Origin: Thraustochytrium sp. TN22
Taxonomy: Eukaryota > Sar > Bigyra > Thraustochytrida > Thraustochytriidae
Direction: 5' to 3'
Assembly (NCBI GenBank): GCA_013306675.1
Contig: JABLUY010000074.1
Coordinates: 62,001 to 126,000 of the forward strand
DNA length: 64,000 nucleotides
The stretch's first letter is position 1; each line of letters opens with the position of its first letter. Shown in pieces: positions 38,785 through 63,800 of this stretch. A model generated the notes under the pieces. The model ran no database searches. It saw only the letters and a list, made by a program, of their open reading frames with translations, and had not been told where the DNA came from. A program made the translations under genes and the position numbers.

Positions 38785-38800
38785 AATAGATGAGATGCGC
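38785..38800 (+). repeat. Left terminal inverted repeat
   Basis: AATAGATGAGATGCGC, perfectly complementary to the right end at 44154-44169. Eight to ten bases away is an in-frame upstream ATG of PRP4. Confidence 0.85.
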
Positions 38801-38884
38801 TGGGCGAAAATCCAAAAAAACGCCTCCAGCCTACCCCCCCCCCCCGCCTGCCCGGGCGCCGGCCGAAAGTCAGGGCGGACAGAA

Positions 38885-38896
38885 GTGGCGCTTCAG
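38885..38896 (+). repeat. Left subterminal inverted repeat
   Basis: GTGGCGCTTCAG, complementary to 44047-44058. It lies 100 bp from the left end; its partner lies 111 bp from the right end. Such sites often bind transposase. Confidence 0.65.
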
Positions 38897-39157
38897 CGCC
38901 TCTTGCGCCTTGCCAGAGACATAACGAAGGGCGGAGGACTCACGCGCGCGGGCTGCAGCGCACGCTGCGTGGCGGGCGCGCAGCGCGGGCAGAGGCGTGG
39001 GCGCGGGGGGGAGGGAGGTCGTGTTAGGCTCAAGCCCTGCGGTTGGCCCTGGCGCGCTCGTAGCCGGTCAGGCAAGAGACCGGAGGGAGCCCTGGACGCA
39101 CGTGGTCGTTAGGTTGACGCCAAGCCGAAGACCTCGCTCAAGACACGCCTGGATGAC

Positions 39158-41383
39158 ATGGCGCGCACTCCAAGCATCTGCGTGGTGACCTCGGATGCTG
39201 GGCTCAGCCCGGACAAGGTCTTAGAGCCTGCCGGAGCACAGGCGTCGCCACCGGCGTCACGGTGCACGTGCGAGTTGGCGTGGTGCCAAGCGAAAGACGG
39301 TATCTTCCGCACGAGCCAGATCTACAGGAAACGACGTTTTCGCGGGGTGGTCTCGAAGAACGCGGAGACGGACTCTGACAAGCAGGATCAGCGTGCGCGA
39401 GACCGAATCTTCACCAAGCTGCGGCCGAAGTCTCAAGCCGAGCTGTCGCCCAACACGAGGGCGCGATTCCGGTGGCACCACTTCCGCCCAGAGTCCTTTC
39501 GCTTCGACGAGAAGAAGGGCGACTGGGTTTTGAAGACGAGCTCGATCACTCAGGTGATAGCGATGGAGACCATGATGACACCGCCACCAACTCGCGAACC
39601 AGCCGTGTGGAACTCGAGCAGGTGGGTTCTTCAACACGAGAGTGCCACGCCGACTTCAACGGCGGAGCGAAGACTCGCGAGTCAAGTTGCGTCTCCGGAA
39701 CGCAAGGCTCTTGGGCGCCGCGCTCATTCGGCCGCTCGTGCAGCCGAAAGTGATCGGGAGCACGCGCAGCAGCAGCTGGAGAAGAAGAGAAAGGCCGAGA
39801 CTGCCCTCGCGCTGCGACGAGCAACGGAGGCCGAGGCGAAGCTGTCACGCCAAGTTCACGAAGCTAGCGTCGCAGAGTCTAGAATCAGGGCAAACTCGGA
39901 GCTGACAGTGGCGGCTTCTGTATCCCGCCAGATGCTGAAATTCAAGGAGATGATGAAGGCGAGGAATGCTGCCAAGGGTTCTCAGCGTTCGGCAGAAAAG
40001 GCCACCTTCGACGCGATCGTCCTGGACCTGAAAGCCGACAAGGCAAAGCTTAAAGCCGACAAGGCAAAGCTAGAGCACGACAAGGCGAAGCTGCAGGCCG
40101 ACAAGGCGAAGCTGCAGGCCGACAAGGCGAAGCTGGAGGCCGACATGGCCTTGTTTCAGTCGATGTTAGCTTGCGCCGACACCGAGAAAGAGAAGATCAG
40201 GGCGAGCACGGTTGATGCCGAGGCACGGATCAAAGCTCTGCAGACGGAACTCTCCCACTCAAAGGCGGCCAACGAAGAGAACGAGCAGGTGATCAAGATT
40301 CTCAGTGCGACTCGCACTGAGGCAGACCCTCTTCGGTGGAACGTGTTCAAGTCAACACGGCGCTTCGCCGACAAGATCAAGTTCTATACTGGGGTGTCAA
40401 GTGTCAAATGCTTCGAAAAATTGGTTTCGCTCGCTCGCGTCGCTGGTGGAGACGACGCCCTGCAGCGCCCTGCAAGCACCGCGGCCTGGAAGGCTTTCAA
40501 GGAGGGCAATAGGGACTTAAAGCCCCAGTACGTGAGCACCAGAATGACGTCCAAGTCCGCCTCAACCAGCGCGTCGTGCCGGAGTAGCGCAGCCCGCCTC
40601 GTGCTCGAAGATCGCCTTCTCATGACGCTGATGATCCTGCGCCTGAACCTGAGCCAGGTAGTAATCGGATCGCTGTTCGGCGTGAACCAGGGCACAGTCT
40701 CGCGCAACTTCGAGTTCGGGATCCAGACGCTGTACGAGGTCTTCAGCCATGGCTTGGAGACACCTGACTCAGAGATGCTGAAAGCGTCCTGCCCCGACAA
40801 GGTCAAGAAAAAGTTCGGGAATCACATGATCAGCTGGCTCCTCGACGCGACGGAGCTCGAGATTCAGGTCCCCGATAACCCTCTAGCGCAGAGTGCGACC
40901 TGGAGCGAGTATAAGTCGCGCAACACTGCGAAGCTGCTCTTAGGTTTGACTCCTAGCGGCTACGTTGGTTGGGCTTCCCAGGCCTACCCGGGCAGGATCT
41001 CCGATCCTGTGATCACGGAGCGCTCGGGGTTCTACTCGGAGTGTGTGCACCCAACTCAAACCATCATGGCGGACAAGGGCTTCATGTTGCATGCGCCGCT
41101 GGCCAGCCGTGGTGCGCAGCTCTACGTTCCGCCCAAGCGATTCAAGGGTCAAAAGGTGCTGTCTCAAAGCGAGGCAAACGATACCCGCAAGATTGCCAAC
41201 TTTCGCATTCACGTGGAGCGAGCAATTAACCGTGTCAAGGACTTCCATTGGCTCACGAGTAAGGTTGCACTCCACCAAGCTGACCTGATTACACCTGCCT
41301 TCAAGGTCGCTTGCTACATCACTGCACTATGCGGCCCTCCAATCACCGCACCTTCAAACACCGCATCAAGCGGAAAAAAATGA
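39158..41383 (+). CDS. DDE transposase, IS4EU/ISL2EU type (HTH_4 + DDE_Tnp_4)
   Basis: A 741-residue transposase from an ATG. The N-terminal ~150 residues have a Cys cluster (CTCELAWC) and RWHHFRPESFRF, which could be a degenerate THAP-like zinc domain; this is uncertain. A coiled coil follows, including six ADKAKL-type heptads (residues ~290-328). A helix-turn-helix matches LEDRLLMTLMILRLNLSQ and IGSLFGVNQGTVSR. The catalytic triad is Asp563 (LLDATELEI), Asp639 (IMADKGF) and Glu687 (IHVERAINRVKDF). TWSEYKSRNTAKLLLGLTP, GRISDPVI and IANFRIHVERAI are signatures of this branch. Its stop is 3 bp from the stop of the convergent SWIM gene. Confidence 0.92.
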   Translation: MARTPSICVVTSDAGLSPDKVLEPAGAQASPPASRCTCELAWCQAKDGIFRTSQIYRKRRFRGVVSKNAETDSDKQDQRARDRIFTKLRPKSQAELSPNTRARFRWHHFRPESFRFDEKKGDWVLKTSSITQVIAMETMMTPPPTREPAVWNSSRWVLQHESATPTSTAERRLASQVASPERKALGRRAHSAARAAESDREHAQQQLEKKRKAETALALRRATEAEAKLSRQVHEASVAESRIRANSELTVAASVSRQMLKFKEMMKARNAAKGSQRSAEKATFDAIVLDLKADKAKLKADKAKLEHDKAKLQADKAKLQADKAKLEADMALFQSMLACADTEKEKIRASTVDAEARIKALQTELSHSKAANEENEQVIKILSATRTEADPLRWNVFKSTRRFADKIKFYTGVSSVKCFEKLVSLARVAGGDDALQRPASTAAWKAFKEGNRDLKPQYVSTRMTSKSASTSASCRSSAARLVLEDRLLMTLMILRLNLSQVVIGSLFGVNQGTVSRNFEFGIQTLYEVFSHGLETPDSEMLKASCPDKVKKKFGNHMISWLLDATELEIQVPDNPLAQSATWSEYKSRNTAKLLLGLTPSGYVGWASQAYPGRISDPVITERSGFYSECVHPTQTIMADKGFMLHAPLASRGAQLYVPPKRFKGQKVLSQSEANDTRKIANFRIHVERAINRVKDFHWLTSKVALHQADLITPAFKVACYITALCGPPITAPSNTASSGKK

Positions 41384-41386
41384 TCT

Positions 41387-42589
41387 TTACCACATGTCAG
41401 GACTCTCGTCAGAGTGCTCGTCGAAGATGGGATCGAGGGCCAACTCGGTGGATTCGTCGATGGGGAGCTGGTCGAGGCCGGTTCTGCGTAGCTCCGCAGC
41501 AGCACGGTCCTTCCAGAAATTCTTGGACACGAAACCGTTCAGCACCGGCGTAAACATTTGCGAGGCGGCAGACTCCCCACCTGGGCATGTCTCTGCGCCC
41601 GCCGCGATGCACTCAGCTAATGCTTTCACGTAGTTGCTGTTGCGGCCCCTCTCGGCGATGTCGCGCAGTGTTGCAGCATGGACCTCGGGAGGAAACGGGT
41701 TGTACTCGAGTCGGCCAAGAGTGTTCTGCCGGCAGACGGGTTCGCCGTATCGCCTTTTCTTCGCACGAGGGGTTCGCTGGGCTCGCTCGAAGATGAGGTA
41801 GGCGAGGGGGTTATTTACCAGGTCCTCGTCTGCCTCTTGCCTCGGCCGGTTCCACTCGCACCTCCTGTCGGTGGCAGGGCCGTCTTCACAATGGTCACGT
41901 TTGAGGTTTTGGACGGCCTGCAGCAGTGCGCTCACATGCACACAGCCGCTGTCGGCACGCGCCGCGGGACACTCGCACATTTGGTCCTTGATCTTGGTGA
42001 TGACCGGGGGCCGGTTGTTTGGGCGCCACTGGACCTCGCATTTGGCGTAGACCTGATACACGCCGTTGACCATTGACCTCGGGCAGAGAAGCCTGAGCCA
42101 GCAGGTGTCAGGGAAGCGATCGCCATTGCTCGGGTAGTAGGCGCCGAATCCGCGCAGGTGTGTGCGGAAGCAGATGCGCTTGTAGCCCTTCTCAAGCACC
42201 CCGTCCTTCGTGCATACGTCCTTGAAGTGCGCTTGCAAGACCGTCTCGGAGACAACTGGCGCGCGCTCTTGCATCTCACCGATGTTCGAGATCCAGTCCT
42301 CATTCTGAATGCCCTTGAGCATCGAGCTGACCTCGGCGTTGTCGATGAGTGGGAGCTCGTGGGTTCTGCGCCCGTTATTGCGCAAGATTTGGAGAGCGCT
42401 CAGGACTTCTGGGCAGCGTAAGTTGGTGAGCGCTTTGTGCTCCTTGCGTGCCTCCTCCTCAACGCGCAGCTGCGTTCGAACATCAGCGTGGAGCTCAGCC
42501 ACCTTTCTGTTGCCCGGAGACTGACCGCGAGTGCGAAGTCAGCGAGCCAGCTGCGCTTGCTTGGCCGTATCTACCTCGCTTTCAGCCAT
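41387..42589 (-). CDS. SWIM zinc-finger protein of the transposon
   Basis: The main exon (41387-42502) codes 371 residues but starts without ATG. A 72-bp intron (42503-42574, GTAGAT...AGAAAG) would join it in frame to a five-codon first exon at 42575-42589 that begins ATGGCTGAAAGCGAG. The key domain is a SWIM zinc finger, CECPAARADSGCVHV (CxC...CxH), followed by RRCEWNRPR and LEYNPFPPE. Those surroundings match the part in front of the YqaJ nuclease in known SWIM-YqaJ transposon proteins. No YqaJ catalytic domain follows: the protein ends in an acidic tail. DNA binding next to the transposase or nuclease is inferred. The short first exon is tentative. Confidence 0.7.
42503..42574 (-). other. 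Possible intron in the SWIM gene (72 bp)
   Basis: On the minus strand GTAGAT to AACAGAAAG. Removing it joins ATGGCTGAAAGCGAG to GTGGCTGAGCTC in frame. No other way to supply an ATG at the start of this frame is seen. Confidence 0.45.
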
Positions 42590-43883
42590 CTTGGCCCTCG
42601 GTGAGATCGACAGTCTCAAAGCCATCCTGGGGTTGCACTTTGGTGACCCCGTCACCCACGTCGTGTTGCTTGGACGCACGGCCGTCGCACTCACACGTCC
42701 CGCGGAGGCCGTTGCACTCGCAGTCACACGTCTCGCGGAGGCCGTTGCACTCACACCTCTCGCGGAGGCAACGTAGCCCCAGCGCGATGAGGTCAACGTG
42801 ATCCCTGTCAAAGCCTGTCTTGCCGACGAGCGCCGACACGTCGGTCTCGGCCAGCACGTCCAAATCCAGCGAGTCGACCTTTCCCGAGGCGAGGAAGAGC
42901 CCAACGCCAGCGAGAAGACCGCCCTTTGCCGTCTTCATCTGCAAGCAGACTTCCTCCTTCAGCGCCCGGGGCCAACCCATGTGCGCGATGAGCTTGCCGG
43001 CGAGCTTCTCGGGCTTGAGCCACTCCGTTACGTCCACCTGCTCATCAAGAAGCTTGTCGAGGACGCGGAGCGCCGTCAAAGGCCCAACGCCCCTGATGTC
43101 GTGGTAGTCAGTCTTGACGAGCAGTGCGTACGCCAAGCACACGGCAGCCGCCGCAACCTGGGGCTCGCAGTCTTTCTCATCTGCGAGCTCGTCGATGATG
43201 TGTCCAAGGTCACGTTGACACGCTTCCCCGGACTCTTCGTCCAGAGGCGCTGTAGGTCCGGCAGGCTCGAAGAGGGTTCCCATGCCGGCATGCCAGTCTC
43301 CAGAAGGTACGACGAGGAGGTTGCCTCCTTCGTGCACGAGCATGTCCGAGTCGACCGAGATGATGTATTGAATGGTCTGTTCGCGAAGCATCGCCACGAG
43401 AGTGTGGTCTGCGGCGGAAGGCGCCACCCGGGACGCGAATCCACACTCGCGCAGCCGACGCAGGACCGCAGAGACGAGCTCTCGCGAGCCGCCGGCGTTG
43501 ACCTTGGAGAGCTTCTCCAAAAGATCGGGAGGAGGCTCTTCACCCTTTGCAGCGTGCTCCTGAAGCTGACTTGCTAGGGCGTCGGCCTTGTCCTTGCGCT
43601 TCTTGCTTCTCGCCGAGTTTGTACGACACTTCATCGGAGTTGGCGCCCCATCAAAGGCAACGATGGGCCTCGCACCCATTCTTTTGAGCTCCGTGAGCCG
43701 ACTGACAAAGCTCTCCACGGTCTTGGTGAAGTTCTTCTTCGTGATGTCCTCGTGCATGACACTCACGTACATGTGGAGCCAGACAGAGGCGTCCACGCCG
43801 ACGTCCTTGTCGGACAAGAGCTCGCAGAGCTTGACCTCGCGCGACTTGGATGCCAGAAGCCGCCGAAGGCCAGTAACGCCCAT
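42582..43883 (-). CDS. FEN1/XPG-family flap nuclease encoded by the transposon
   Basis: A 433-residue nuclease. The XPG-N part has MGVTGLRRLLASK, VGVDASVWLHM with the first metal Asp, and FDGAPTPMK. The XPG-I part has APSAADHTL and IISVDSDMLVHEG with two acidic residues. The helix-hairpin-helix has DYHDIRGVGPLTALRVL. Compared with FEN1, the second acidic pair is only half kept: EAE is AAD. FEN1-like enzymes cut 5' flaps. The C-terminus has a Cys-rich repeat, CECNGLR.TC twice, coded by ~36-bp tandem units near 42685-42775. Its TGA overlaps the ATG proposed for the SWIM gene. As part of the transposon it may process ends or gaps during transposition (inference). Confidence 0.85.
   Translation of the reverse strand: MGVTGLRRLLASKSREVKLCELLSDKDVGVDASVWLHMYVSVMHEDITKKNFTKTVESFVSRLTELKRMGARPIVAFDGAPTPMKCRTNSARSKKRKDKADALASQLQEHAAKGEEPPPDLLEKLSKVNAGGSRELVSAVLRRLRECGFASRVAPSAADHTLVAMLREQTIQYIISVDSDMLVHEGGNLLVVPSGDWHAGMGTLFEPAGPTAPLDEESGEACQRDLGHIIDELADEKDCEPQVAAAAVCLAYALLVKTDYHDIRGVGPLTALRVLDKLLDEQVDVTEWLKPEKLAGKLIAHMGWPRALKEEVCLQMKTAKGGLLAGVGLFLASGKVDSLDLDVLAETDVSALVGKTGFDRDHVDLIALGLRCLRERCECNGLRETCDCECNGLRGTCECDGRASKQHDVGDGVTKVQPQDGFETVDLTEGQDG
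42685..42775 (-). repeat. 36-bp tandem repeat within the nuclease gene
   Basis: About two and a half in-frame units coding a Cys-rich tail. The shared part is CTCGCGGAGGCCGTTGCACT on the plus strand. Confidence 0.75.
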
Positions 43884-44046
43884 CCTGGCTGAGAAGCAAG
43901 AGGCGCGAACGCAGGCGCGCTGCCCAGCTCTCCCGGCCCACCCCTGCCGCGCTGCCGCCTTGCTCCGCGCCTCCGCGTCAGCGTCCGCCGCGGCGACTCG
44001 AGGCTACAGTTATGTTGGCTCGCGCGTCGCTCGCGCTGCTCAGAGC

Positions 44047-44058
44047 CTGAAGCGCCAC
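44047..44058 (-). repeat. Right subterminal inverted repeat
   Basis: CTGAAGCGCCAC, complementary to the left copy at 38885-38896. Confidence 0.65.
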
Positions 44059-44153
44059 GCGAGAGGTGAACAAAAAAAGGAAAATGCGTTGCGGAAGCCG
44101 CAAAGGGGTAGCGGACGAGTCTCCTCGGCGCTCCCTCCTTGGCGCGGAGGGCG

Positions 44154-44169
44154 GCGCATCTCATCTATT
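44154..44169 (-). repeat. Right terminal inverted repeat
   Basis: GCGCATCTCATCTATT, the exact reverse complement of the left terminus. Confidence 0.85.
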
Positions 44170-49812: not shown

Positions 49813-51456
<1,644 letters not shown>

Positions 51457-57339: not shown

Positions 57340-57489
57340 CGGTGACGGGGCGACTAGGCCTAGGAGGCCTGGCCCACGAGCAGTGGATTCTGTGCACCAA
57401 GTGCAGGGCCGCGGGACAGGGCCGCAACATAGTTTGGTGGAGGGCGTGACACAACGAAGACCCTGCGAGGCGTGTGGCGGCCTGCTGGG

Positions 57490-60345
57490 ATGGGCGACGA
57501 GCACGAGGAGCCCAGTGGCTCCTCGTCGCGCAGTGCCAGTGGCTGCTCCGAGTCGTCGCGCGGTGGCTGCTCGTCGCGCAGCGGGTGCGCGACGCTCAGC
57601 GATGACTTGCCGCAAGACGTGAACGGTCGCGGCGTGCGCGAAAGCGCTGCCAGTGAGATTTCGGACGACTCGGACGACGAGGGCATCGGCATCTCGGATG
57701 AGTCGGACGAAGAATACGAGGACGAGGACGAGAAGAAGCAGCAGCGTGTGGAGAAGACCAAGACCCTTGTAGAGGAGGTCTTCAAGGATTACGAGGTTCA
57801 AGATTGGTCGGAGGACGAAAGCCGGGCCTTCGCGCTGGGTCACACGTCGGACGAGGTGCAGCAAAAGGCGGCCTTAGCGATGAGCATTGCCGAGCTTGCC
57901 CAGGCGCAACAAACCCCAGACTCGCTGGTTCGTATCGGCTTTGCCATCGAGATCATGCGCGGTGAGCCGGAGGCAAGGGACCTGCTCAATACGAGCTCCG
58001 ATACCTTTGAGGAGTTCTGGAAGGCGGACTCCTGCTTTGTCTCCTTCAAAACGCACTGGAGCAAACTGCGTTACGCGGTGGTGCTGCGCAGCCTCGTCCT
58101 GGGTCAAAACAAGCCAGTGGTCTTGCTCCTGGACACCAAGAACCAGGGAAAGTACGACATCGACTCCGCCGTCTCCTGGCTGAATGACGCTTACGTGAGC
58201 ATCTTGAAACCGCACAAGCTTCAGGATGAGCGGCCTCGGCAGCTGGTAGTCGTGAAAAACTTAGCCAGCACCAAGCTTCCCAAGACGGGCGTACAGAACG
58301 GTGCAGTCGTCTTTTACATGCGCATCTTCAGGACGGACTCACTCAAGACGCTCCCAGAGAGGCACATCCGGAAACGCAAGGCCATGGTAGTCCTCGTGGA
58401 GGCAAATGAGGTGCTCGGTAGCGTGGAGATTCAGGAATTGGTGCAACGCTGGGCCCAGAAGTACGGCCTTGCACTGACTTTCGTGAGCGCAACGCCCGAG
58501 TCGCATCGCTGCGTGGCCAAAGCGCTCGGTAGCCCACTGCGGCGCGTAAATGTCCTGGCCCGAGAGGGTTACTTCCTCAGCATTGAAGTCGACGAGAACG
58601 GCGCGGCGCCTGCTGCAGATGAGAAGCGGGTTTTCCCCGTGAGGTATCAGACTCTGGAGCGGTCCGAGACGCCTGTGGGAGAGGCCGATGCGGACAACCT
58701 GCTGCTTGCCGACGCCACCCTTGACTCTCTGAGGCTCGCGTTCCCGCACCATAGCTTCATCGGCGGCGACTCGGCGCGAGCACTCTTCAAGTTCGATGCT
58801 GAGTCAAGCCGCGGCAAACGCTCGCCGATAGACGCTCGCTATGTCGAGCACCTGCGCAAGATTGTCTCGGCGCGGCACTCCAGCTGCACGCTCGCTCTCA
58901 ACCCGTTCAGGTCCGTGGAAAGGAAAGTCTTCACTTCGAAGAGCAGCAAACCAGGCAAGCGAAAGACGCTCCGATGGACGGAGACCACGCAGAGCAAGAC
59001 GGCGGGTCACATGCGCTTGGCACGATGGCTGGCCAGAACCGCAGAAGCAAGCAGCCGCGCGCAGCCCGACGTGAAGCCTTCAGTTGCAACGTGCGCACTG
59101 TACACGGTCTGCCGCGACTCGCGCCAGTACCAGAAGCCGCGCCTTTTCCTCAATTTTTGGCTCTTGCGAGCCCTCGCCAAGATCGGCTCGGACTCGCTGG
59201 ATACCTTCGTGAAGGGCATCTTCGAGCCCAAATTTATCGGCGAGGCGCAGGAGCAGCAGGACAAGTGCCGTGGAGGCGCGCCCCTCATGGCGCAGGACCA
59301 GAAGCGACAGCAAGATGAACGCGAAAAACTCGTTCGCGAGCTGAAAGAGATCCGCATCGATGCCAGGAAACTTCTCAACTCCAGCGAAGATACCAAGAAA
59401 CTCCCCAACTCCAGGAAGGCCCGGCTTTTGAGCCACGGAAGCAGCATCTTCTCCTTCTGCCTCGGCAAGCACCCTCTCGGGCTAGACAAGATCCTCGCTC
59501 TTGTGCGGGCCTTGCACGAGCAGCGCTTCAAGGAGCCAGGCGCCTACAGCCAAAAGCCCCTCAAAATCGCGGTCGTTGGCTGGGACGACCTCGGACAGTC
59601 CGTCGACGCGCACAGCGCGTGCGGCGAGGTTCAGGTCACCGACCTCGTCTACCTCAGCCCCCGCACTAAGCACGTCAAGCACGCTGCCCTCAAGGAGAGA
59701 ACGCTGCTGCTCAGGAGACTTGGCAGTGTCAATCACGGCCTCAACACGTCGGCCTTCTACAAGTCCGCTTTCCCCGGCTCGAAGACCCACGCCGACCGCC
59801 GGCCTCGCGTCTTCGTGCCGGAGCGCGTCATGACCATCTGCGCGGGCAAGGGCGTGCAGACTGAACAGCTCTACGAGGACGTCGCGCTTCCTGCAGTGTT
59901 GCCTGTACGGGTGGCCGAGGGCCCAGCGGCCACTGCAGTCGCCCCGATCCGCATCCCGTCGTCGCCGGCCTTCGCGCGTGGGTCGCCACAGAAGCGGCTG
60001 CGAGTACGTCAGGACTGCGACGTAGAATCCTTCTTCGCACGCTGGGCCAAAGATCAAGGTCTGCCGCACAGTGCTACGGCCTCTCTCGTCGCATCGCTCC
60101 ACCCGCACGCGCAGGCGCACCTTTCCCTCAAGGAGGTTCGCATGCGGCTTGCGAGTGTTTCGCCGCAGAGCGAGGTGGTGGCGCGCTTCCTCGACGACGA
60201 AGGCGCCTGGCGCAATTTGCTCTCGACGTCATTGCGCAGCCCATCGCCCAAGCAACCCCGCACGCATCGCTTGAGTCCATCCTCCAGCACTCGGCCGGGC
60301 TTTAGTTCCTGGACCTTGGCATCTTCGCCTGGCCCCGACTGTTAA
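57490..60345 (+). CDS. Helicase-like paralogue with decayed ATPase motifs
   Basis: A 951-residue protein, collinear with its downstream neighbour (61170-63800). After an acidic Ser-rich lead, shared blocks include LVRIGFAIEIMRGEPEARDLLN and VVLRSLVLG. The ATPase sites are altered: the P-loop position reads HWSKLR (Lys192 kept, both glycines lost), the DEAH position reads VEAN (Val303), and LGS with Ser746 stands where the sibling has LGR. FVSATPESH (motif III-like) remains. The second half has KPLKIAVVGWDDLGQSVDA and EVQVTDLVYLS. It is likely a non-hydrolysing sibling that keeps its fold, perhaps as a partner. Start: first ATG. Confidence 0.75.
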   Translation: MGDEHEEPSGSSSRSASGCSESSRGGCSSRSGCATLSDDLPQDVNGRGVRESAASEISDDSDDEGIGISDESDEEYEDEDEKKQQRVEKTKTLVEEVFKDYEVQDWSEDESRAFALGHTSDEVQQKAALAMSIAELAQAQQTPDSLVRIGFAIEIMRGEPEARDLLNTSSDTFEEFWKADSCFVSFKTHWSKLRYAVVLRSLVLGQNKPVVLLLDTKNQGKYDIDSAVSWLNDAYVSILKPHKLQDERPRQLVVVKNLASTKLPKTGVQNGAVVFYMRIFRTDSLKTLPERHIRKRKAMVVLVEANEVLGSVEIQELVQRWAQKYGLALTFVSATPESHRCVAKALGSPLRRVNVLAREGYFLSIEVDENGAAPAADEKRVFPVRYQTLERSETPVGEADADNLLLADATLDSLRLAFPHHSFIGGDSARALFKFDAESSRGKRSPIDARYVEHLRKIVSARHSSCTLALNPFRSVERKVFTSKSSKPGKRKTLRWTETTQSKTAGHMRLARWLARTAEASSRAQPDVKPSVATCALYTVCRDSRQYQKPRLFLNFWLLRALAKIGSDSLDTFVKGIFEPKFIGEAQEQQDKCRGGAPLMAQDQKRQQDEREKLVRELKEIRIDARKLLNSSEDTKKLPNSRKARLLSHGSSIFSFCLGKHPLGLDKILALVRALHEQRFKEPGAYSQKPLKIAVVGWDDLGQSVDAHSACGEVQVTDLVYLSPRTKHVKHAALKERTLLLRRLGSVNHGLNTSAFYKSAFPGSKTHADRRPRVFVPERVMTICAGKGVQTEQLYEDVALPAVLPVRVAEGPAATAVAPIRIPSSPAFARGSPQKRLRVRQDCDVESFFARWAKDQGLPHSATASLVASLHPHAQAHLSLKEVRMRLASVSPQSEVVARFLDDEGAWRNLLSTSLRSPSPKQPRTHRLSPSSSTRPGFSSWTLASSPGPDC

Positions 60346-61169
60346 CTTGCTCTTCGCACCCCGTGGGGAATCACATTGTAAATAACCTTAAGCCTGAAAG
60401 AAGATTGGACATGTCTCGGACAGCTTCGCAGCGCCCAAAGCGTCGCGGTGGTGCGGCACTGCGGCACAAGCGCGGCCCCTGGGCCCTGCGTGAAAGACCT
60501 CCTGCGCGATGCGATGAGCGCCAGCCACGCGCCGCGCGCTGGTCCTGTATCCGTGCCGCGCACGTTCCGCACACGTTCCCTCCAATTAGCCACCAACAAT
60601 CGAGCTGCCAGTGCGAGCAAGCTGGCCACGCGCTCACCCCGGCCGTGACTAGCGCAGCACTGTATCTTCTATCTATCCCGGCGGCGCGATCGCAGCCTCG
60701 CCAGCCTCCTCCTCCACCATGAGCGCCGCGAGCGGGGGAGCGAGCCCAAGATCGAGTTCATTGCCCGTCGCTCGCTCGCCCTCTCGCTCGCCCTCTCGCT
60801 CGCGCTCTCGCTCGGCCCCTCGCTTGCCCCTGCTGGGCGTAGCTAGCTAGCTTGCGCCCTCGAGCTAGCTTGCTTGCTCGGGCACGCTCGCTTGCTCCCG
60901 CGAGCCCGCCGCACCGCAATCGCACGCGGGTCTCACGGCGCTCCCGCTCCCGTCGCGCTCCCTCCTCGGCGCTCGCCCAGCTTCCAGTTACAGTCTGACC
61001 AGACTATGGGCGCGTCCCGCAAGACGCGCGGCGGCGGCGGCGCGGCGCCCCCGGGCCTCGGCAGCAGACCCGAAAGAGCCAAGGCAAGCGAGGCCCCGCA
61101 CCGCACGCGCGCAGCAGCGGCGAGCAAGACCTGACCGTGAGTGACCCCGCGCATCGCGCGGCAGGCAGC
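60346..61169. other. Spacer between the two helicase-like genes
   Basis: About 820 bp. It includes a CTCGCCCTCTCGCTCG repeat (60770-60830) and GCTAGCTAGC palindromes. A short frame starting ATG at 61004 ends at 61134 and may be an upstream ORF or an unspliced first exon; it resembles nothing known. Confidence 0.45.
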
Positions 61170-63800
61170 ATGCCGGCGCAGATGAACCGGTACTACTCGA
61201 CGGAAGACGCGGAGATCTCGAGCAGCGACGAGAGCAGCGACGAGAGCAGCGAGCTCTGGGCGTCAGGGGACTCCGTGGTGTGCTCAGAGGACTCGGACGA
61301 GGAAGTGCGCGAGGAGGACCGGCGGCAGGAGCGCGAGCGCGAGCAGCGGGAGCGGTGCCAGACAGAGGTGCTGTCGAGCTGCTTCCGAGGCACGCGGTTC
61401 AACGGCATGGACTGGGATGAGGCGCGCTGCGAGGCGTTCGGCCTGGACCTCCAGGGCCCCGAGCTGGAGGAGAAGGCGAAGCTGGCAGTGGACATCGGCA
61501 ACCGGACGCACGCGGAGCAGAGCGCAGAAAGCATCATCCTCATCGGGCATGTGATCGAGATCCTTCGCGAGGAGCCGGAGGCTGTAGACCTCCTCAACCC
61601 GGGGACGGAGGCCTTTGAGGACTTCTGGACGCCAGGCCGTTGCCTCATCTCCTGCACGATGCAGGGCGGCAAGACGTACCGCGCCATCGTGCTGCGCAGC
61701 CTCGTCATGGCGGGCGTGCGCGAGAAGCATGTCGTGGTGCTGAGCAACTCCAACTCCGCGAGCTACACGGACATGGAGCGCGCCATCAAGCGGCTGAACA
61801 AGGCGTACGATACCCATGTGCGCGCGCGTGTGGCCGGCTTGGGCGATACGACCAGCAAGTACCTGCCGGCCAAGCTCGGCGTCTACACGAAGCTCAACTC
61901 GCCGGAGGCCAAGCGCATCCAGGCCAGCAGCCTCGCAGAGGGCGTCCACTTCAACGTACGCCTCTTCTCCAAGAAGAACCTGGAGACCATGGTGAAGCGT
62001 CGCAACGATTTCGCGTGCACCCCAGAAAACTCGGTGCTCGTCATGGACGAAGCACACGACTGCCTGCGCGGCAACGGCGCGTCCAAGGCCTTCCGCCACA
62101 TGGCCCGCAAGTGGAAGAAGGACCTGGCCCTCATCACCGCAACGCCCAACCCGCACAAGCTTCTGCCGGACATTCTCGGCGGCAAGCTGCGCGCCGTGGC
62201 GCTGCGCCCGCGCCCGGGCTTCTACCTGTACACCGAGGCGGGCGAACACGACGACCTTGACAACGATCTCCGGGTGGTGGACTACCGCGTCCTGGAGGAC
62301 ATTGTGCCGAGCGCCGCGCCCGCCGACCATGACCGCGTCCCCTTCCCTCGCTCCCAGTTTGAGTCCTCCATCCTTCTCGCTGGCAGCCACGGCGAGACTG
62401 GCATCGACGAGCGCAGCCTGGTCCACCTTCGCGAGGTCTGTGCGGCGCCCAGCTCGACCTGCACCATGGTCTGGAACGACTTCCAGGCCAAGCCAAAGTC
62501 CACCCGCAGGCGTAGGTCCTCCAAGTCTATCGATCCCGACGCGCTCCGGCCGAGCAAGGCGAACTGGTCTCCGAACGCCGGCCACATCCAGCTCGCCGAG
62601 TGGCTCGCTCAGGTCGCGGCCACCGCGCACAAGACGCGCGCCTCTGTCGCCGCCTTCGCGGCCTACGACAGCTGCCGGAGCGACCCTCGCTACAAGTACC
62701 CGCGCGTTTTTATCAACAGGAAGCTCCTCGGGGCGCTCGCCAGGTGCGACGACGTCGAAAAGAGCATTGTGGACCAGGTCTACACCCAGTACGAGAAGGA
62801 TGCTGCCACGCACCACCTCGTGACTCAGGAGGTCCGTGAGAGCCTTGTCGGCGACCTGGCAAGGGCCAAGAATGCCGCAAATAAGCTTCTCAGGAAAACC
62901 TCGCACGGCCGCAAGACCTCGCGGCGGGGCGAGTCGCGCTTCTTCATGAATCACGGCCACGGAATTTACTCCTTCACCTTTGGCCCCCTCCGTCTCCACC
63001 TCAAGATCATCCTCAGCATCGTGCGTCACATGCACGAGCTCCGTCTCGCCAAGAACAACTGCACCTACGTGGAAAAGCCCCTCAAGATCTTTGTGGTTGG
63101 CAAGAGCCTCCTGCGCCAGTCCGTCAACGTCGAGAGCATCTGCCGCCAGGTCCAGCTCACCGACCTCGTCTACCTCAGCAAGCAGACCGTTGGCCTCGAC
63201 CAGACCGCACTGCTCCAGGGGCTTGGCCGGGTCAACCACGGCTACGATGACGGTTCCAGCAGCTTCATGGCTTCTGCGTTCCCGCAGGCCTCCTGCCCTA
63301 AGGAGTACCGGCCGCGGGTCGCTCTCGCCAAGAAGATCAAGGACTTCGTCGTTCGCACGCCCGAGTTCCAGAGCCGCATCGAGGCCGGCGGCGAGCATTC
63401 TGACGTTCACCACGACATGGAAACCGTCACGAAACGGAGTGTCAGCATCCACCGCCCCTGCACCGAGCTGAAGACCAGCGAGCGCGCGATGCCCCACGCT
63501 CTCAACCAGGCTCGCAAGCGCAAGGCCTCCGCCCCCGCCCCGCCCTCGCCTGACGACATCCTGAAGAGCCTCCTGGACACGCACGGCTCTTGGGCGCAAC
63601 CCAACGAACGCAAGCTTATCCTCTGCGCGCTGCGCGAGCCCTTCAAGGCTTGCTTGCCCCACGCACGCCTCAATGGGTGCCTCCCTCGCTCGACGCCTGC
63701 TGCGAAGCCGCTGCAACGCTTTCTCGAGCATCTCCCAGCCTCTTCTTGGTCGCAGGCGCTGACCGAGTTGGCGCCCGCCAAGCGCGTCCATGCAGCTTGA
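61170..63800 (+). CDS. SF2-type helicase/ATPase, possibly Z1-like C-terminus
   Basis: An 876-residue protein. After a Ser/Asp-rich lead, ATPase motifs are complete: P-loop SCTMQGGKTYRA (Lys168), Walker B VLVMDEAHD (Asp293) and LITATPNPH (Thr323). The C-terminal half contains KPLKIFVVGKSLLRQSVNV, QVQLTDLVYLSKQ and LLQGLGRVNHG with Arg687 as candidate arginine finger. That order (VGG-LSRG-like, then SYFxR-like, then QxGR) resembles the Z1 helicase domain, otherwise known from bacterial MORC/endonuclease systems; this is an inference from motif order. The start is the first ATG. The partner protein upstream is about one-third identical by eye. The substrate is unknown. Confidence 0.75.
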   Translation: MPAQMNRYYSTEDAEISSSDESSDESSELWASGDSVVCSEDSDEEVREEDRRQEREREQRERCQTEVLSSCFRGTRFNGMDWDEARCEAFGLDLQGPELEEKAKLAVDIGNRTHAEQSAESIILIGHVIEILREEPEAVDLLNPGTEAFEDFWTPGRCLISCTMQGGKTYRAIVLRSLVMAGVREKHVVVLSNSNSASYTDMERAIKRLNKAYDTHVRARVAGLGDTTSKYLPAKLGVYTKLNSPEAKRIQASSLAEGVHFNVRLFSKKNLETMVKRRNDFACTPENSVLVMDEAHDCLRGNGASKAFRHMARKWKKDLALITATPNPHKLLPDILGGKLRAVALRPRPGFYLYTEAGEHDDLDNDLRVVDYRVLEDIVPSAAPADHDRVPFPRSQFESSILLAGSHGETGIDERSLVHLREVCAAPSSTCTMVWNDFQAKPKSTRRRRSSKSIDPDALRPSKANWSPNAGHIQLAEWLAQVAATAHKTRASVAAFAAYDSCRSDPRYKYPRVFINRKLLGALARCDDVEKSIVDQVYTQYEKDAATHHLVTQEVRESLVGDLARAKNAANKLLRKTSHGRKTSRRGESRFFMNHGHGIYSFTFGPLRLHLKIILSIVRHMHELRLAKNNCTYVEKPLKIFVVGKSLLRQSVNVESICRQVQLTDLVYLSKQTVGLDQTALLQGLGRVNHGYDDGSSSFMASAFPQASCPKEYRPRVALAKKIKDFVVRTPEFQSRIEAGGEHSDVHHDMETVTKRSVSIHRPCTELKTSERAMPHALNQARKRKASAPAPPSPDDILKSLLDTHGSWAQPNERKLILCALREPFKACLPHARLNGCLPRSTPAAKPLQRFLEHLPASSWSQALTELAPAKRVHAA

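Follow-up and report, generated by a model that had tools for sequence, protein, structure and literature searches.

A thraustochytrid DNA transposon that encodes an XPG-superfamily nuclease beside a SWIM-motif protein

In the genome of Thraustochytrium sp. TN22 we found a complete DNA transposon of 5,379 bp, located at window positions 38788-44166 between AT dinucleotides. It contains a DDE_Tnp_4/HTH_Tnp_4 transposase gene; the opposite strand encodes a SWIM-motif open reading frame (ORF) together with an ORF for a nuclease of the XPG superfamily. The window is the whole stretch of 64,000 nucleotides that was analysed, i.e., positions 62001-126000 of contig C425 in an assembly of 37.9 Mb and 453 contigs, and a beta-tubulin gene at 49813-51144 identifies it as eukaryotic. 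We propose that a DDE transposase acting at 13-bp terminal inverted repeats (TIRs) is accompanied by a SWIM/RAD2-EXO1-like module, in which one 5' nuclease would stand in for the unrelated YqaJ nuclease; we give this proposal about an even chance. The ORF list and the repeat search recovered the three long ORFs and the termini where the original prediction had placed them. In the following list of features, full copies are the five with all three genes, on C425 (the window), C88, C177 and C398 (99-100%) and on C267 (95%). The six young copies comprise these and the copy on C73, in which most of the transposase is lost and the nuclease and SWIM ORFs are open.

38786-38787, no strand: presumed left half of a 2-bp target duplication, AT in the context A-AT, from reading of the flanks
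38788-38800, plus strand: left TIR, AGATGAGATGCGC, from repeat search and genome scan
39158-41383, plus strand: transposase ORF, 741 aa, uninterrupted in all five full copies
40595-40744, plus strand: HTH_Tnp_4 domain of the transposase, Pfam E 3.5e-12
40841-41320, plus strand: DDE_Tnp_4 domain of the transposase, covering 156 of 158 profile positions at Pfam E 1.3e-33
41387-42502, minus strand: SWIM-motif ORF, 371 aa counted from a GTG, placed tail to tail with the transposase and uninterrupted in all six young copies
41936-41977, minus strand: CxCx8CxH (SWIM-type) motif, residues 176-189, read from the sequence; one Cys is lost in C267
42503-42589, minus strand: extension to the likely original SWIM start, ATG at 42589-42587, which overlaps the nuclease stop as ATGGCTGA
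42521-42574, minus strand: candidate in-frame GT..AG intron of 54 nt whose splicing would take out a TGA; its donor GT is not kept in C111
42582-43883, minus strand: XPG/EXO1-superfamily nuclease ORF, 433 aa, from Pfam and profile search, uninterrupted in all six young copies
43413-43489, minus strand: cluster of 14 differences in 77 bp across the XPG I-region, window copy against the five other young copies
43590-43883, minus strand: XPG_N domain, Pfam E 2.8e-15
44154-44166, minus strand: right TIR, from repeat search and genome scan
44167-44168, no strand: presumed right half of the target duplication, AT in the context AT-T, from reading of the flanks

The element is bordered by a 16-bp perfect inverted repeat (38785-38800 and 44154-44169), of which the TIR proper is better taken as the inner 13 bp, with AT lying outside. 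Over the whole assembly, the 13-base pattern matched 13 times, against no match for a reversed control pattern, and 11 of these 13 are real ends of the element. The two others, on C175 and C449, have no significant similarity to the element and were set aside as chance matches. AT precedes nine of the 11 real ends (eight AAT, one GAT); both ends of the C267 copy lack it and are preceded by TTC and TCC. The flanks thus read as (A/G)AT ... ATT fit an AT duplication within A-AT-T, a mark of the ISL2EU group as characterised in a survey (PMC4482050), and outer 3-mers of AAT/ATT or GAT/ATT do not fit a 3-bp ANT duplication. We call the AT duplication presumed because no paralogous empty site occurred in the host genome for the five joined flank pairs, each of which matched only as its own separate halves. 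One of the C267 flanks is repetitive and returned further one-sided matches.

The transposase covers nearly the whole DDE_Tnp_4 profile, as is typical of the PHIS superfamily, and contains a helix-turn-helix (HTH) domain, as do transposases of the ISL2EU group. For residues 20-130, Pfam reported no THAP domain even at E 10. The N-terminal region (39215-39547) features a CxCx4C pattern followed by HHF, which is kept in the relatives on C20 and C216 and could represent a THAP-like zinc domain that has diverged. Tandem repeats of 21 bp (40028-40149) lie in the coiled-coil part of the protein, and two of their units are missing in C267. In the host genome, the DDE_Tnp_4 profile matched at 19 places, and beyond the element's own family none of them coincides with a listed XPG match. 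Matches on C27, C277, C404 and C136 fall within open frames of about 1,440-1,520 aa, far longer than usual transposases.

The second enzyme had been predicted as a complete flap nuclease of FEN1/XPG type. Its XPG_N domain indeed places it in the XPG superfamily, but its nearest kin are others than FEN1: a profile built from six nuclease copies matched the known chains of RAD2 at 1e-10, EXO1 at 5e-10, human XPG at 2.3e-6 and FEN1 at 2.2e-5. Since the RAD2 and EXO1 matches are stronger than that of FEN1, RAD2/EXO1-like is the better label. Completeness holds for the copies on C88, C73 and C267, in which both XPG_N and XPG_I pass the Pfam cut-off, but not for the window copy as assembled, in which the altered I-region reaches only 18.5 bits for XPG_I, under the cut-off of 24.9. 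The C88 nuclease has all seven acidic active-site positions, which we take from FEN1/EXO1 (D31, D78, E157, D159, D178, D180 and D259). E157 is missing from the window copy, and D78 and D159 from C73; apart from this loss of D159, the five other young copies show the usual I-region motif. Outside the 77-bp cluster, only one substitution and one indel separate the window copy from C88 within the element. We suspect that the cluster is an assembly error, and real damage is possible as well. With 14 clustered differences in the I-region and a TGA after the SWIM start, the window copy is probably impaired.

Three XPG_N genes belong to the host itself; from their sequences, we named them by eye as EXO1-like (C49), FEN1-like (C149) and XPG-like (C158). 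C49 is closest to the transposon nuclease, with 32% identity over 184 aa, and a recent copy of a host gene was hence ruled out as its source. The enzyme shares XPG_N and the I-region with host-type RAD2/EXO1/FEN1 nucleases; in contrast to these, it is carried by a transposon, comprises 433 aa with Cys-rich C-terminal repeats, and is at most 32% identical to a host gene. The repeats, 33 bp long and in tandem (42685-42777), encode a tail of the form CECNGLRxTCxC.

Of the predicted SWIM part, the CxCx8CxH motif is present but profile support is not, as the ORF had no Pfam match even at E 10 and the Pfam SWIM profile was likewise blank. At 42582-42589, the nuclease stop overlaps an ATG in the SWIM frame, and a start at this ATG would add 29 residues. 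In five of the six young copies (window copy, C88, C177, C267 and C73) an in-frame TGA follows at 42541-42539; C398 and the decayed copy on C111 have TGG in its place. Fusion of nuclease and SWIM through an intron was considered for the window copy and rejected, as no convincing donor lies ahead of the nuclease stop. In C111, a single frame runs from the C-terminal half of the nuclease into the SWIM N-terminus, with two stops, both within the Cys-rich repeat. The two genes thus form an overlapping pair, perhaps derived from an older fusion; C111, as a single decayed copy, does not settle the order of the fused and overlapping states. In the equivalent of 42015-42940, C398 has clustered differences that set it apart from the other young copies, some of them common to C111; an older variant, gene conversion or an assembly mixture are possible sources.

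Changes among the young copies lend mild support to constraint on the transposase and the nuclease. Compared with random placement, 17 of 47 changes in the transposase are synonymous (P 0.028) and 24 of 77 in the nuclease (P 0.042), or 20 of 61 (P 0.057) when 43413-43489 is left out. In pairwise comparison, the transposase (C267) has a pN/pS of 0.54-0.56 and the nuclease one of 0.41-0.85, and between the C88 and C111 nucleases dN is 0.078 and dS 0.156, a ratio of 0.50 over 203 codons. In SWIM, 9 of 44 changes are synonymous (P 0.79) and pN/pS is 0.92-1.86, so that neither measure gave a sign of constraint among the young copies. If placed alone, one of the 77 changes in the nuclease would create a stop, and the real frames have none; with 1.4 stops expected, this lack is not significant on its own. 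Assembly noise may account for the clustered differences seen in the window copy and in C398.

Searching the host genome with the element's DNA gave 15 matches. Besides the young copies, of which that on C177 has its left end within Ns, two matches belong to the decayed copy on C111. Two others, on C24 and C399, each extend 55 bp into a terminus before the contig ends, and together they may represent both sides of a single unassembled copy; the remaining five are fragments of relatives (three on C291, one each on C20 and C434). Protein searches yielded 15 matches for the transposase, nine for SWIM and ten for the nuclease, the latter being seven family copies and the three host genes. Gene order is identical in all five full copies, and the nuclease adjoins SWIM at seven of the nine SWIM-bearing places, namely in the six young copies and C111. 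Among the diverged relatives, C291 (transposase 66%) and C396 (41% over 253 aa) are decayed, each with a short SWIM remnant tail to tail, and the DNA around these remnants held no detectable nuclease of either kind. The relative on C216 (36-39%) runs into a contig end 1.1 kb further on, a stretch in which neither SWIM nor a nuclease was found; C20 retains the N-terminal part of the transposase only, and C434 is a short fragment. These five relatives are too decayed to show which nuclease came first. No relatives of the element were confirmed in viral contigs, and the nuclease query had no match in phages.

Copies without the nuclease gene would have refuted the prediction. None of the seven family copies that reach through the region lacks it, and we conclude that it belongs to the family; a passenger of a single copy is ruled out. 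It could still be a captured passenger of one recently amplified lineage, without a role in transposition, with transposase and SWIM as the working set. The young copies may indeed stem from one recent burst, constraint on the nuclease is only mild, and the diverged C291 and C396 keep SWIM remnants and no nuclease. However, the gene persists even in the decayed C111, is open in every young copy, overlaps or shares a frame with SWIM, and is kept open with SWIM in C73 despite the loss of most of the transposase. We regard capture as rather unlikely. That a host repair gene came to adjoin a transposase by chance is refuted by the repeated copies and deserves next to no credence: EXO1-, FEN1- and XPG-like genes do exist in the host, but the nuclease lies inside the TIRs, is repeated with them on other contigs, and is far from its best host match.

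ISL2EU-type elements pair a SWIM part with YqaJ, and the SWIM-type protein described here presumably resembles the N-terminal half of the animal SWIM-YqaJ proteins, with which we take it to share the motifs flanking SWIM. YqaJ, which is lambda-exonuclease-like, and EXO1, which has a different fold, both act as 5'->3' exonucleases, so that either enzyme could carry out the same step. By Pfam, none of the three proteins of the element contains a YqaJ domain. The only PF09588 match in the host genome is on another contig (C78:69347-69727, within a 713-aa open frame), in a 3.4-kb locus where SWIM and transposase gave nothing beyond weak matches (E 0.1 or worse). The predicted absence of YqaJ was thus confirmed, and a YqaJ hidden in the element is ruled out within Pfam's limits. 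A further-reaching reading is that an ISL2EU-type lineage exchanged its SWIM-linked YqaJ for a RAD2/EXO1-type nuclease forming one unit with SWIM (once fused, now overlapping), so that 5'-end processing would be conserved and the fold interchangeable; this is tentative, and we put it somewhat below an even chance. Of the predicted swap, the presence of the nuclease in all seven family copies and the lack of a YqaJ match stand; the replacement as such is what we infer, relatives such as C291 and C396, in which no nuclease was detected, being too decayed to show the ancestral state. In favour of our main proposal we count the constant gene order, the Pfam domains of transposase and nuclease, the AT outside nine of 11 ends, the lack of YqaJ, the overlapping or shared frames of nuclease and SWIM, the acidic positions of C88 and the mild constraint on the nuclease. 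Counted against it are a SWIM part lacking a profile match and any sign of constraint, the TGA in five of six young copies, the remnants on C291 and C396, TIRs that start with AG, the missing empty site and the C267 flanks.

Alternatively, the element might belong to another PHIS branch (Pangu/Harbinger-like) whose second gene never was a YqaJ, in which case nothing was replaced; we consider this unlikely. Against it stand the outer 3-mers, which fit AT and not ANT, and the presumed resemblance of the SWIM-type second protein to the N-terminal half of animal SWIM-YqaJ proteins. In its favor, TIRs beginning with AG are described as usual in Pangu (PMC4482050), whereas those of ISL2EU usually begin with GG in the same account, and autonomous Harbinger elements of the brown alga Ectocarpus contain two genes arranged tail to tail and have duplications that are in part ANT (PMC12477816). 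Two papers on the group, which use the name ISL2EU where the prediction had IS4EU/ISL2EU, describe a YqaJ exonuclease ORF and do not contain the word SWIM (PMC4482050, PMC9179366). Since the element lacks YqaJ, we claim that it works like ISL2EU, short of full membership.

The nuclease of AcademX is XPG-type, so that DNA transposons with an XPG nuclease are probably not new; its occurrence beside SWIM in an ISL2EU-like element appears to be new. Among the literature matches listed (titles and starts of abstracts, with Repbase Reports and most subscription journals outside this scope), none announced an XPG-type nuclease in a Harbinger or ISL2EU element, which is weak evidence of absence. The ISL2EU group of the PHIS superfamily (PMC4482050, PMC9179366) shares with our element the DDE transposase with HTH, the AT duplication in A-AT-T, which is presumed for our element, and a coding capacity in two parts, the accessory protein being of exonuclease type; in contrast, our element features a RAD2/EXO1-like nuclease instead of YqaJ, AG TIRs, a non-animal host and no THAP domain by Pfam. 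Kolobok (PMC9587614) offers a published parallel for an exchange of accessory nucleases, being one transposase superfamily whose lineages (KolobokD, KolobokE, KolobokP) have different accessory nucleases, although the superfamily is another one and the nucleases are DEDDh, lambda-exonuclease-like and His-Me types, not XPG. In Academ, another DNA transposon (PMC10045372), the parallel is nuclease against helicase: the AcademX lineage has an accessory nuclease and AcademH a helicase, yet the transposase superfamily is a different one and the duplications measure 3-4 bp or 9-10 bp.

Mechanistically, the DDE transposase with its HTH would cut at the 13-bp TIRs, insert at A-AT-T and duplicate AT. 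The accessory module would comprise a zinc protein with the SWIM motif and, encoded next to it, a 5' nuclease of RAD2/EXO1-like type; acting jointly, the SWIM protein might bring the nuclease to the element ends, where the nuclease could trim flaps or 5' ends, either at the break in the donor or at the gap left by insertion. Such 5'->3' processing is a job that a YqaJ protein could do in animal ISL2EU elements. To our knowledge, the role of the accessory nuclease in ISL2EU-type transposons has not been established. If the slot next to one kind of zinc protein is filled by either of two unrelated nucleases, their common activity points to the purpose of the slot, which, should the swap be true, would probably be 5'-end trimming at excision or insertion and could be assayed. 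Our findings hint that such elements can swap one DNA-end-processing enzyme for another. An ISL2EU-like element would also reach beyond animals, to which a 2015 survey confined the group (PMC4482050); one later paper has an ISL2EU annotation in an oomycete (PMC8204020).

Elsewhere in the window, an ORF of 957 aa (57472-60345) lies next to one of 887 aa (61137-63800); the two share 33% identity over 698 columns, and the second contains an MDEAH-like helicase motif. The pair is possibly another repeated or mobile gene family.
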